Below are positions 1,587 through 6,340 of a stretch of DNA of 51,777 nt, piece after piece. A model generated the notes under the pieces. The model worked only from the letters and a program-made list of their open reading frames with translations, did not search any database and was not told the origin of the DNA. A program made the translations under genes and the position numbers. The stretch comes from a virus: positions 1 to 51,777 of IMG/VR virus record IMGVR_UViG_3300018910_000019; one strand, 5' to 3'. Position 1 is the first letter of the stretch; every line of letters starts with the position of its first letter.

Positions 1587-1848
1587 GACGGCCTCCTCGG
1601 CCCGTGGCCCCGCGAGGGGCCGGTACGGGTGGCGCTCCGGCGACGACACGCCGGTGCGGGAGCCGGGCGGTCCGGCTCCGCCCGAGCCAACGATCACCAC
1701 CAGACCGGGTCACTGGCCCGGGCAAGCCCCCGCACCGGGGTTGACGTTTTTCACCCGCCCGGGCACGACGGGCGCACAGCACGGCGCGGGGGCGCCCCAC
1801 CGGACCCCGCACCACCCCGCCCGGACCCCGGCGAGGCAGGATGGAACC

Positions 1849-2061
1849 ATGGATCTCCGAATCTTCACCGAACCCCAGCAGGGCGCCACCTACGAGACCC
1901 TGCTCACCGTGGCGAAGGCCACCGAGGATCTCGGGTTCGACGCGTTCTTCGGAACCGGTACCGTATCTACCCATGGAGCTAGTTGCCCTGGGGGACAGGG
2001 ACCACCAAGACATGGTCAGGGCAGTGACCTACGGCCGGCAGAGCCACAAGAGCGAGACTGA
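1849..2061 (+). pseudogene. LLM-class F420-dependent oxidoreductase, 5' fragment cut by prophage
   Basis: ATG 1849 opens a protein beginning MDLRIFTEPQQGATYE and running to LGFDAFF (residue 34, base 1950). This is the typical N-terminus of luciferase-like, F420-dependent oxidoreductases of Streptomyces. After base 1950 the frame leaves the family: the expected continuation (an R-S-D-H-Y type motif) is replaced by phage-encoded residues and a stop at 2061. The remainder of the gene should lie beyond attR, outside the window. The flavin/F420 barrel cannot form from this fragment. Confidence 0.75.
1930..1975. other. attL (left prophage junction)
   Basis: Left of about 1950 the sequence encodes the conserved start of an LLM-class oxidoreductase; right of it the coding similarity ends and the integrase follows within 60 bp. 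This is the arrangement expected of attL made by a large serine integrase, whose att sites share only a few core bases. The crossover lies near TTCGACGCGTTCTTC (1936-1950). The exact dinucleotide cannot be fixed without attR or an empty site. Confidence 0.65.
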
Positions 2062-3748
2062 CAGCCAGGCATCCCCACTTATGCAGAAGGAGAAGGGGAT
2101 CGCGTACATCAACTCACAAGACAACTGGAAGCACGTCGGACACTACGAAGACGTGGGCCTGTCTGGGTACGACCCCAACGTCTACCGACCGGACTTCGAG
2201 CGGATGATGGAGGACGCACGGCAGCGCAAGTTTGACGTCGTCGTCATCTACATGCTATCGCGACTCACGCGTCAGGGCGCCGCGGAAGCACTGAAGATCC
2301 AAGAGGAGCTTGCACAGCACGGAGTCGCGATCGTCTCGACGCAAGAACCCTTCATCAACACGTCAGATGACAACCCGTTCGGCGTTGCCTTCTTCGCGCT
2401 GATCGCCGGACTTGCGCACCAAGAATCCAAGAACAAATCGAAGTTCATCCGCGACGCCTTCGCGGAACTGAAGGCGAAGGGCTCGCACTCCACCGGCCCG
2501 GTCCCTTACGGCTTTGACGCCGAGTCGGTTCAGGTCGACGGGGTGACCATTCGTGTTCTCCGGCCGGGCGAGACGAGTGACGAGGAAATCGGCCCGAAGT
2601 CGACGCCTGCGGATAACGTGATGCACATCATTCAAGAGGCTGAGCGAGGAGTGAAGGAGAACGCTATCGCTTATGCCCTGACCGAGAAGAGGGCCAAAAC
2701 GCCGCTCGGAAGTCTCGACGAGGAAGCGGCAAAAGCTCGCCGAGAGGCTGCATCAAAACGCCGCAAGGGCGGTGCATCTGACACAGCAGACTACGAATGG
2801 TCATCCACCGTTGTCCGCCGGATACTTCGCGATCCGCGTTTGGCTGGCTTTGCTATCGGCCCTGTTGACCCCAAGACGAAGCGCCGGCAGATCCTTCGGG
2901 ACGAGAACGGCCAGCCTGTGCGGCCTCACGAAGGCTTCATCACTCCAAAGCGCTGGTACGACCTCCAGGCGATCCTAGACGGACGTAAACGGGAGCGCGT
3001 CGTGGACCGAGCCGGGACGCTGACATTCCTCGGCTCGTGGGGAGTCCTGCGCTGCGGGCTGTGTGATTCCGGAATGACGGTGTCGAACACAGACAGCACC
3101 TACGTATGCAACCTTCGCCGGAGCGTGGGCACCGTCGGTAAGCACGTCCTCCGAATCAGGCAGGAGGATGCCGACGCCATCGTTGCGAGTCGTCTATGGA
3201 CCAAGGTGGCCAGCCTGGACCCGGAGGACGATGATGACATCGCCATCCTCGCGGCTGCCGCGGAGAGGTTCGCTGTCCAGGGTGCCGACCCGGAGGCCGC
3301 CGCAGAGCTGGCGGAACAAGAGGCACAACTCGCCCACGTCCAGCAGAGCATGAAGGATCTCTACGCCGACCGAGACGAAGGGCTGTACGAGGGCAAGACG
3401 GGGCGCCAGGCGTTCAAGGACACCATCCGCAAGTACCAGCAGCACGAAGCGCGCTGCATGGCGCGCATCGACGAACTGAAGGCCGCTGCCACCGTTGCAA
3501 CGCGCCTCCCCATCGACGACTGGTTCGCCGACTCCGACGAAGGCAACCCCTTCGAGCCGGGCGGGCTGTGGGACAGGTGGGATGTGGCCGACAAGCGCGC
3601 CTTCCTGTCTCTCTTCGTCGACTCAGTGTCAGTCGGCCCGGCCGGCACGAAGCGGGGCTCTCGCCTCGAACGGGCTGAGAAGCGCATCGAAATCACGTGG
3701 GCGAGCCCTGCGGAAGACGAGGAAGATAACGAGTCGGTAACAGGCTAG
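2012..3748 (+). CDS. int: Large serine integrase
   Basis: Catalyses attP x attB recombination through a covalent phosphoserine intermediate. From ATG 2012 the protein has 578 aa. Resolvase domain: catalytic Ser11 in TYGRQS, and the arginine motif LSRLTRQG near residues 82-89. Then a recombinase domain, a zinc ribbon (C348, C351, C366), a coiled coil at about 427-497, and an acidic tail. Overall it resembles phiBT1/phiC31 integrases rather than R4. ATG 2012 gives the usual short N-terminus; ATG 1973 is an in-frame alternative with a poorer ribosome site. The frame stays open upstream into host DNA (to ATG 1841), so a longer chimeric product is possible in the lysogen. Confidence 0.95.
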   Translation: MVRAVTYGRQSHKSETDSQASPLMQKEKGIAYINSQDNWKHVGHYEDVGLSGYDPNVYRPDFERMMEDARQRKFDVVVIYMLSRLTRQGAAEALKIQEELAQHGVAIVSTQEPFINTSDDNPFGVAFFALIAGLAHQESKNKSKFIRDAFAELKAKGSHSTGPVPYGFDAESVQVDGVTIRVLRPGETSDEEIGPKSTPADNVMHIIQEAERGVKENAIAYALTEKRAKTPLGSLDEEAAKARREAASKRRKGGASDTADYEWSSTVVRRILRDPRLAGFAIGPVDPKTKRRQILRDENGQPVRPHEGFITPKRWYDLQAILDGRKRERVVDRAGTLTFLGSWGVLRCGLCDSGMTVSNTDSTYVCNLRRSVGTVGKHVLRIRQEDADAIVASRLWTKVASLDPEDDDDIAILAAAAERFAVQGADPEAAAELAEQEAQLAHVQQSMKDLYADRDEGLYEGKTGRQAFKDTIRKYQQHEARCMARIDELKAAATVATRLPIDDWFADSDEGNPFEPGGLWDRWDVADKRAFLSLFVDSVSVGPAGTKRGSRLERAEKRIEITWASPAEDEEDNESVTG

Positions 3749-4778: not shown

Positions 4779-4851
4779 GCTTCCGTAGCTCAGTGGCCAG
4801 AGCCCCCGCCTGTCGAGCGGGTAGTCGCCGGTTCGAGTCCGGTCGGGAGCG
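4779..4851 (+). tRNA. tRNA-Asp (GTC)
   Basis: Complete 73-nt cloverleaf: acceptor GCTTCCG/CGGGAGC (one G-U pair), D stem GCTC/GAGC, anticodon stem CCCGC/GCGGG with loop CTGTCGA (anticodon GTC), 5-nt variable loop, T arm with TTCGAGT. CCA is not encoded. It decodes GAC/GAU, very common codons in these phage genes. Confidence 0.93.
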
Positions 4852-4927
4852 CAAGGACGTCAAGCACCGTGGGACCTCTCGCGGACAGCCTCTGACGGCC
4901 AACACCCGGGCCTCACGGTCCGGACGC

Positions 4928-4984
4928 GAGCCTGTGACCGTGTGGGGTCAGGTAGCTGCTCCGGTTCGATGCCGGGCGGGCTCA
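4928..4984 (+). tRNA. Shortened tRNA-like RNA (possible tRNA relic)
   Basis: A canonical T arm (stem TCCGG/CCGGG, loop TTCGATG, 4960-4976) is followed at once by CGGGCTC and A. CGGGCTC pairs over 7 bp with GAGCCTG at 4928-4934, as an acceptor stem would. Only 25 nt, not the usual 41 or so, lie between, and they form one hairpin (TGACC/GGTCA, 6-nt loop). It therefore looks like a tRNA lacking one arm: a decayed gene or a tRNA mimic. No anticodon can be assigned. Confidence 0.45.
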
Positions 4985-5127
4985 CAGGGGGCGTCCCGTG
5001 CGCGACTGCGCAGCGCGCGCCTGAACTCCGTGACCGCCGGCAGGCGGGGGAGCGGAGAGAAGAGCAGCGGCAGCGACGCCGCGAGGCTGCTCACGCTGTC
5101 CGACGGCGGGACCCGGGCAGCACATCA

Positions 5128-5203
5128 CGGGACGTGGCCAAGCTTGGACTAAGGCGCCCGCTTTGGGAGCGGGAGATCGCGCGTTCGAATCGCGCCGTCC
5201 CGA
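5128..5203 (+). tRNA. tRNA-Pro (TGG)
   Basis: A 76-nt tRNA: acceptor CGGGACG/CGTCCCG, anticodon stem CCCGC/GCGGG with loop TTTGGGA (anticodon TGG), T loop TTCGAAT, discriminator A, and no encoded CCA. TGG reads CCA and wobble Pro codons, which are rare in very GC-rich hosts, so it may supplement the host pool. Confidence 0.93.
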
Positions 5204-5254
5204 CTGACGCAGTGGTGACGTATTGGCCACGCCGGTCCGGATCTGATACATGAG

Positions 5255-5283
5255 AAAGGCCCCGTTTACCCCCCGGGGCCTTT
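5255..5283 (+). terminator. Terminator after the tRNA cluster
   Basis: Perfect 10-bp stem AAAGGCCCCG/CGGGGCCTTT with a 9-nt loop, ending in TTT. The AAA/TTT ends make it able to act in both directions. It closes the tRNA unit, and could also stop minus-strand transcripts coming from the lipoprotein side. Confidence 0.8.
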
Positions 5284-5407
5284 CGTACCCCGCTTGCGCG
5301 GGGAGCACTTGCTATCAACGCCCTACATCGGGCCATCCCCGCTGACGCGGGGACCATACACCTGTCATCGTGAGCATCTGGGACATCCCCGATGTCTCGG
5401 GGAGCAC
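5280..5407 (-). CRISPR. Three type I-E CRISPR-repeat-like hairpins (degenerate mini-array)
   Basis: Three 29-nt units at 5280-5308, 5329-5357 and 5379-5407, read on the minus strand. Each has a five-base start (GTGCT or ATGGT), a CCCCG-stem/GNNA-loop/CGGGG hairpin and an eight-base tail. Loops are GCAA, GTCA and GACA. In the unit at 5379 the closing C-G pair is changed to A-T on both sides, keeping the stem. The layout matches class I-E repeats such as E. coli's. The spacings are only 20 and 21 nt instead of about 32, and no cas genes are in the window, so this is not a normal array. Repeat mimics (RNA anti-CRISPR) or processing hairpins are alternatives. Confidence 0.45.
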
Positions 5408-5425
5408 GAGGAAGACGCTAGCAGA

Positions 5426-5466
5426 CCAACCCCGCCGCGGAGGAGAGTTCCCGCGAGCGGGGTTGG
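5426..5466. repeat. CCAACCCCGC inverted repeat
   Basis: Perfect 10-bp arms CCAACCCCGC (5426-5435) and GCGGGGTTGG (5457-5466) with a 21-nt loop, just before the ribosome site of the gene at 5485. It could be an mRNA leader hairpin or an attenuator. It lacks the tetraloop of the CRISPR-like units. Confidence 0.55.
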
Positions 5467-5484: not shown

Positions 5485-5694
5485 ATGGCGCACATGCTGG
5501 GCGCCGCAGGCTTCGCAGGTACAGGATGCTCCCCGAGGTGCCGACGGACGCACACACCCCGTCCGAAGCACACAGCGAAGGTCATGCGGCTTCGCGAGCA
5601 TGCGGACTGGCGTCGCGACTGGGCGGACGACGTTGACTACTCGTGGTACGAGCGCAACTCCGCGATCCTGATCGACCTGGGCCTGATTAGCTAG
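5485..5694 (+). CDS. Small basic hypothetical phage protein
   Basis: A 69-aa protein from ATG 5485, with AGGAGG 4 nt upstream. It has a Gly/Ala-rich start (MAHMLGAAGFAGTG), a basic C/H-containing centre (CSPRCRRTHTPRPKHT) and an aromatic/acidic tail (DWADDVDYSWYERNS). It looks like a conserved Streptomyces-phage hypothetical; no function is known to me. It converges with the lipoprotein gene and overlaps its stop by 8 bp. Confidence 0.65.
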   Translation: MAHMLGAAGFAGTGCSPRCRRTHTPRPKHTAKVMRLREHADWRRDWADDVDYSWYERNSAILIDLGLIS

Positions 5695-6319
5695 CTGGCA
5701 GCTCCACCACGAACGCCGGCTCCCCGGACGGATCCTCCGTCCCGTAGTAGCCGACGGTTCCGCCCTTGCGGGCGACGTCGAGGATGAGGGTCCCGGTGAC
5801 GGACTGCCCCGGCTTGTAGGTCGTGTCCAGCTCCGGACCCTCGCCGACGCCCTCCAGCGTCGTCGCGTCCTGCGCGGCTGTCTGCTCGTCCTCCCACCGC
5901 ATCATCCCGTAGGTCATGATCTCCGCGGGCGCCTTGCCGACGTTCTTCAGCGTGAGCTTCAGCTCGACGTACTGACCGTGCTCGGGCTCGTTGGTCGTGT
6001 CGACCTCCGCCGGCGTCACATAGCGGGCGCTCTCGACGGTGACGGACATCTGTGTCGTCACCTTGTAGTTCTCGCCGTACTCATCGGTCTCACCGATATC
6101 AAACTTCTCCGTCTCGCCGACGCCCACGACGGGCGCAGGGGCGGACGACGCCGCCTCCTCGAACGGCTCCTGCGACGGCTGCTCTTCAGCGGGCGGATCC
6201 ACTGACGCGGACAGCGTCGGAGCGGGTCGGTCCTTGTCCGGCTCCGACGAGCACCCCGTCAGCAGAGCAGCGGACAGCACAGCAGCCGGCACCACGGCAC
6301 GGCGAACGTAGGCGCGCAT
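5687..6319 (-). CDS. Secreted lipoprotein, DUF4352-like (candidate moron)
   Basis: The only convincing minus-strand phage gene, 210 aa from MRAYVRR with GGGGGG just upstream. It has a signal peptide and lipobox LLTGC (Cys23), an acidic Pro-rich linker at about 27-70, then a beta-rich domain (VELKLTLKNVGKAPAEI, GTLILDVARKGGTVGYYG) like the immunoglobulin-like DUF4352 domains. It would be anchored outside the membrane. The opposite orientation, between tRNAs and packaging genes, is typical of genes expressed from the prophage, for example superinfection exclusion; that role is inferred. A palindrome GTGGCC...GGCCAC (6341-6358) lies upstream. Confidence 0.8.
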   Translation of the reverse strand: MRAYVRRAVVPAAVLSAALLTGCSSEPDKDRPAPTLSASVDPPAEEQPSQEPFEEAASSAPAPVVGVGETEKFDIGETDEYGENYKVTTQMSVTVESARYVTPAEVDTTNEPEHGQYVELKLTLKNVGKAPAEIMTYGMMRWEDEQTAAQDATTLEGVGEGPELDTTYKPGQSVTGTLILDVARKGGTVGYYGTEDPSGEPAFVVELPAS

Positions 6320-6340
6320 AGCGCATCCCCCCATGACTCA

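Follow-up and report, generated by a model that had tools for sequence, protein, structure and literature searches.

A tandem cassette of type I-E CRISPR repeat-like units, a probable RNA anti-CRISPR, in a Samy-like phage

The repeat-like cassette and its surroundings

The DNA analyzed here (hereafter, the window) is the IMG/VR virus record IMGVR_UViG_3300018910_000019 at its full length of 51,777 nucleotides; the closest named relative of this phage is Streptomyces phage Samy. The intergenic region between a tRNA-Pro gene and a putative lipoprotein gene encompasses three CRISPR repeat-like units that fit within 128 bp (Table 1). The original prediction described three 29-nt type I-E-like units, with a period of 49–50, on the minus strand of a prophage. 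The units lie exactly at the predicted positions, with periods of 50 and then 49, and an integrase ORF (1841–3748) indicates a temperate phage, but the source is a virus record rather than a prophage observed in a host. A scoring model of 29 positions, trained on 28 non-redundant repeats from true I-E arrays, recovered the units as the best three sites on the minus strand, with scores of 12.7, 28.8 (the top of the window), and 11.7 for units 1–3, respectively; when the whole window was Markov-shuffled 20 times, the top single sites scored 1.5–14.4 with the same model.

As predicted, each of the three units consists of a 6-bp stem with a 4-nt GNNA loop (GACA, GTCA, and GCAA in units 1–3), and the compensated change of a C-G pair to A-T is real and belongs to unit 1. 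The GNNA loop is not kept across relatives, and the window units resemble one another in the core alone, with loop, flank, and stem varying among them; the top identity to known I-E repeats is just 22/29 to 23/29. An eight-base tail, originally ascribed to every unit, is present in units 1 and 2 but not in unit 3, which stops after the first 21 nt of the repeat, its tail merging into the 5' arm of an intrinsic terminator that overlaps it and takes the place of the 8-nt handle.

The usual distance between a -10 motif and the transcription start is 6–7 nt, so that the extended -10 motif next to unit 1 predicts a start at about 5408–5407, around the first base (G) of this unit. Together, the units, the promoter motif, and the terminator look like an independent small-RNA gene of ~155 nt. 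The minus-strand RNA has a predicted folding energy of -81.6 kcal/mol (z -3.8), better than 200 of 200 dinucleotide shuffles. A need for read-through transcription out of the lipoprotein gene has to be rejected because a conserved terminator-like hairpin and the -10 motif intervene. This hairpin is kept in Samy and other relatives whether or not the cassette is present; its large CCGGGAACTCTCCTCCGGGG-like loop, also conserved in relatives, exceeds the needs of a terminator.

On the other side of the cassette, phage genes for tRNA-Asp(GTC) and tRNA-Pro(TGG) occupy positions 4779–5204, and the tRNA content at this place differs strongly among relatives. An Rfam scan of the window at the gathering score matched the two tRNAs and nothing else, and a Cas5 model search for a cas operon adjacent to the units yielded no match anywhere in the 51.8-kb record.

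Table 1 Features of the repeat-like cassette and its neighbors in the window
Feature	Position	Strand	Remarks
tRNA-Pro(TGG)	5128–5204	+	Convergent neighbor, far side of the cassette
Intrinsic terminator GAAAGGCCCC...GGGGCCTTTC	5254–5284	-	Score 31, reached by 0/30 shuffles
Repeat-like unit 3 GTGCTCCCCGCGCAAGCGGGGTACGAAAG	5280–5308	-	First 21 nt match known I-E repeats at 20/21; 8-nt handle missing
Inter-unit sequence 2 (pseudo-spacer)	5309–5328	-	20 nt
Second hairpin	5320–5333	-	Predicted to fold the unit 2 5' handle; GCCC (5333–5330) pairs with GGGC (5323–5320)
Repeat-like unit 2 ATGGTCCCCGCGTCAGCGGGGATGGCCCG	5329–5357	-	Nearest of the three to a full I-E repeat
Inter-unit sequence 1 (pseudo-spacer)	5358–5378	-	21 nt
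Repeat-like unit 1 GTGCTCCCCGAGACATCGGGGATGTCCCA	5379–5407	-	Stem with the compensated A-T pair
Extended -10 promoter motif TGCTAGCGT	5415–5423	-	Ends 7 nt ahead of unit 1; evidence from the motif
Terminator-like hairpin of the lipoprotein gene AACCCCGC...GCGGGGTT	5428–5465	-	Precedes the cassette
Putative lipoprotein gene	5687–6334	-	Upstream; conserved neighbor, anchor for finding relatives

Tandem elements in relatives and in other phages

Relatives were located with the lipoprotein gene as the anchor, and a cassette was sought between this gene and the next one. Four relatives contain a cassette: Samy (2 units, period 50), L003 (3 units, periods 61 and 43), L005 (2 units, period 43), and L246, a prophage of Streptomyces sp. 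SID5910 (4 units, periods 52, 49, and 50). All five Samy-like cassettes, including that of the window, open with TG[CT]TAGCGT, and the terminator sequence varies from cassette to cassette. In L006 and L007, both the motif and the units are gone, leaving a clean junction. Being either present or cleanly missing at one site across relatives, the cassette behaves as an optional gene rather than as stray hairpins. The majority of the lipoprotein-gene loci found in Streptomyces genomes have no cassette, which counts against a decoy function.

Searching viral contigs for two CCCCGC-N4-GCGGGG stems 22–40 nt apart, with the surroundings left unspecified, produced 110 stretches. Generic hairpins without repeat flanks in related phages had been named in the original prediction as the outcome that would speak against it; among the 130 distinct hairpin pairs, 70 carry an I-E handle together with a T before the next stem (on the leader side), compared to 0.46 expected from shuffled gaps. 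The period is 49 or 50 in 45 of these 70 flanked pairs, against 7.4 expected with periods of 38–56 permitted. A search from promoter motifs with unconstrained spacing detected further elements, with periods mainly of 49–51 or 59–62. Judging from these sequence features, dozens of other phages carry predicted tandem elements of the same kind, many of these phages being unrelated. A BLAST comparison of the other elements with named (isolated) phages identified no further clear homolog.

The spacing falls into classes of 43, 49–50, and 61–62. In the pooled phage-type elements, which were separated from true arrays automatically so that a few true-array fragments remain, the periods peak at 43 (6 cases), 49 (37), 50 (18), 61 (38), and 62 (8). 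REP-type repeats (CGTCAT-CCCCGC..-ATCCAG) that surfaced in the same searches lack I-E handles, are mostly proteobacterial, and were left out of this pool. In Cascade, the footprint of Cas7 is 6 nt, and 12 nt correspond to two footprints; the dominant phage period of 49–50 is 12 nt below that of real I-E arrays (61–62). A period of 55, one footprint short, occurs just twice in the pool; shortening by 12 nt is present, and shortening by 18 nt is less frequent. The 20–21-nt length of the window spacers was stated correctly in the original prediction, but it does not serve as the objection to type I-E that was drawn from it, being a recurrent, quantized feature, 12 nt short.

Other traits of the cassette recur as well. 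Of 39 elements, 18 have a -10-like motif (7.3 expected, although some elements were chosen by that motif) and 21 have a terminator, and the last unit is frequently devoid of a handle, as expected if just its 21-nt hairpin half, the 3' end of a crRNA, is needed. Handles are clade-specific, ATGGYCC in actinophages and ATGAACC in a Pectobacterium prophage. The Streptomyces I-E repeats include CCCCGC-stem and CTCCGC-stem classes (PMC4762764), and given that CTCCGC-stem units are present in 7 of 53 elements, some elements mix repeat classes. Large Streptomyces phage-like contigs of ~156 kb contain seven-unit elements (L170:1194–1411, the same as the L011 element, and L012) that include CTCCGC-stem units, the repeat class of S. 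avermitilis. A similar element with periods of 61, 49, and 49 is found in an alphaproteobacterium labeled Stappia (L148:2078–2253) and in the viral contig L073, so that the class extends beyond actinophages.

The match between elements and host repeats is uneven. A unit of the SID5910 prophage, CTGTTCCCCGCACCCGCGGGGATGGCCCC, is identical in 28 of 29 positions to a repeat from the host's own arrays, which ranks first among 47 repeats, and this genome encodes Cas6e along with I-E arrays. In a second host, with an array remnant only and no Cas6e found, the host's own repeat also ranks first (27/29); in four other hosts, it is not the top match (ranks 5, 5, 14, and 22). Cas6e is not enriched in the Streptomyces genomes with elements (5/11, against a base rate of 159/394, or 40%).

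A further element belongs to a Pectobacterium prophage fragment (L303), 43% of which aligns with Pectobacterium phage ZF40 at 84% identity. It consists of five I-E-like units (L303:2435–2680; periods 50, 50, 49, and 50) with the enterobacterial handle type, preceded by the promoter-like hexamers TTGACA/TAGCGT. AcrIF8 and Aca2 have both been described from phage ZF40. In the same fragment, a 92-aa ORF (L303:4153–4431) is flanked by the lysis genes and the integrase, in the position of the gp31–gp30 pair of ZF40; it shows no homology to gp31 but may be an anti-CRISPR candidate.

Inter-unit folding and the competing explanations

The sequences between the units set the elements apart from ordinary arrays. 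Often, as for unit 2 of the window, a GCCC that closes the handle pairs with a GGGC between the units, and similar hairpins occur in many other elements; the unit 1 handle has no predicted pairing with its spacer. Folding of the handle together with the inter-unit sequence exceeds that of shuffled sequences for periods of 47–52 (z -0.64, n=57, p=2e-6) as well as 59–63 (z -1.34, n=22, p=1e-4), where the p-values disregard kinship among some elements, whereas the spacers of true arrays in the same test show no excess (z -0.12, n=150, p=0.12). In their folding, the inter-units differ from ordinary spacers; a guide should stay free for pairing with its target, but a decoy need not.

This difference bears on the best surviving alternative, namely, that the cassette is a phage mini-CRISPR array that employs host Cas proteins and short spacers aimed at rival phages or the host. 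The repeat architecture, the promoter-like motif, and the compatibility of the units with Cas6e would fit such an array, and there is precedent for mini-arrays with targeting spacers in viruses (PMC11656645). Moreover, according to work cited in PMC7296934, type I-E Cascades whose spacers are 6 or 12 nt shorter retain some target degradation. However, the repeats vary inside one element, whereas the described mini-arrays have host-identical repeats, and some of the inter-units, apart from folding, are shared by different phages (the 43-nt class). Inter-unit sequence 1, the one window spacer subjected to an exact-match search, gave one 18-nt hit, in a viral contig, approximately as expected by chance, and 989 I-E spacers from true arrays gave weak matches only to the viral loci and none to the window. 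We consider a targeting array unlikely.

Still less probable, in our assessment, is that the hairpins are generic, serving processing or termination where transcripts converge, or else form the site of some other RNA-binding protein unrelated to CRISPR. The tRNA genes on the plus strand and the lipoprotein gene on the minus strand indeed converge here, and a true terminator adjoins the units, but such hairpins would not be expected to carry I-E bases on both sides of the stem in many unrelated phages, nor clade-specific handles and spacing quantized by 12 nt.

Marginally weaker again is the case for a captured remnant of a host CRISPR array that is decaying in the phage, for which the degenerate repeats, the small number of units, and the occurrence of some periods of 61 can be cited; furthermore, true Streptomyces I-E arrays (L231, L232, L283, and L286) now and then hold a 49–50-nt unit. 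Decay, however, would hardly leave the sharp 49–50 period peak, the promoter-like motif and terminator that are retained, and a single site in five relatives. The stems, too, are kept: 160 units contain 946 standard, 6 double-compensated, and 8 G-U pairs and no broken ones, although these counts are not independent proof of selection because unit detection favors intact stems. Finally, a decoy at the DNA level that diverts Cas1–Cas2 or offers a recombination target in host arrays is highly improbable: solitary repeat units (SRUs) were once proposed to permit integration into arrays (PMC10651486), but the cassette's own promoter-like motif, terminator, and preserved RNA stems indicate an RNA product, and the limited identity of the window units to known I-E repeats also argues against it.

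A probable tandem RNA anti-CRISPR and its relation to known systems

The cassette is, we think, probably a multi-unit RNA anti-CRISPR (tandem Racr) directed against the type I-E Cascade. The steps that we infer are transcription, Cas6e processing, Cas7 assembly, and inhibition. An RNA of ~155 nt, starting near the first base of unit 1 and ending at the terminator, would present a series of repeat-like hairpins, each to be bound and cleaved by host Cas6e. The crRNA-like pieces freed in this way would comprise the 8-nt handle, followed by a pseudo-spacer of 20–21 nt and 21 nt from the repeat after it. On these pieces, Cas6e would assemble with a Cas7 backbone of reduced length into complexes without a useful guide, Cas proteins would be drawn off the real crRNAs, and immunity would fall; the lengths of the mimics would fit whole numbers of Cas7 subunits.

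The original reading, a Racr-like element or mini-array of the I-E type, finds computational support in the I-E flanks and the promoter-like and terminator features. The decoy reading is further favored by the spacing peaks, inter-unit folding, the handle-less last unit, the SID5910 host-repeat match, the ZF40-like five-unit element, and the inhibition reported for solitary I-E Racrs; the lack of Cas6e enrichment, the low host-repeat ranks, and the unpaired unit 1 handle count against it.

A broader proposal, which we put forward with slightly more doubt than confidence, is that there exists, in more than one bacterial phylum, a class of phage ncRNAs consisting of tandem crRNA mimics framed by a promoter and a terminator. 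Their inter-unit length would change in Cas7-footprint steps (periods of 61, 49, and 43 nt, that is, 0, -12, and -18), nucleating undersized, guideless Cascades; the 5' handle would often be tied up in a fold of the same RNA, and some elements would match several host repeat classes, such that one RNA could disarm many I-E variants. If so, RNA anti-CRISPRs are more common and more elaborate than cataloged, the 12-nt quantized shortening is a natural experiment on the counting of Cas7 subunits by Cascade along a crRNA, and tandem RNAs could influence CRISPR immunity in Streptomyces and provide compact off-switches for type I-E tools in these bacteria.

The closest known systems are the solitary Racrs, among which RacrIE1 and RacrIE2 inhibit I-E immunity, and RacrIF1 works via Cas6f and Cas7f, with substantial inhibition left when the 5' handle is altered (PMC10651486, Camara-Wilpert et al. 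2023). Like these, the window units are intergenic and phage-borne, mimic a known CRISPR repeat in both sequence and stem-loop, and have no accompanying cas genes (as searched with the Cas5 model); a promoter, recognized as a motif, is located just upstream and is retained along with the cassette. For both, the proposed action is to capture Cas6 and Cas7. On these sequence features, the window cassette is a tandem Racr-like element but, with three units in 128 bp, not a solitary Racr as defined by SRUFinder, which implies no other repeat within 100 bp. The elements described here differ in having 2–7 tandem units with quantized short spacing, often a handle-less last unit and, in some cases, mixed repeat classes. 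In SRUFinder, full matches within 100 bp were clustered as arrays and dropped, and candidates with partial flank matches were discarded (PMC10651486), so that a tandem class would be missed by that search and, if our proposal holds, RNA anti-CRISPRs are under-cataloged by design. We found no description of such a class in the literature within reach of our search, and the predicted tandem decoys in other phages appear to be undescribed so far.

Viral CRISPR mini-arrays, for instance those of Saccharolobus portogloboviruses (PMC11656645), similarly combine several repeats and inter-repeat sequences with the absence of cas genes, but have host-identical repeats and targeting spacers, in contrast to the degenerate repeats and short, folded inter-units without evident targets seen here; because its repeats differ from each other and its spacers are short and folded, the cassette is not a standard mini-array. 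With the I-E arrays of Streptomyces (PMC4762764), it shares the 29-nt repeat, the CC(T)CCGC-N4-GCGG(A)GG-type stem, and the ATGGTCC-type handle, but those arrays consist of near-identical repeats with 32–33-nt spacers and a period of 61–62, whereas the window element has spacers of 20–21 nt and a period of 49–50.
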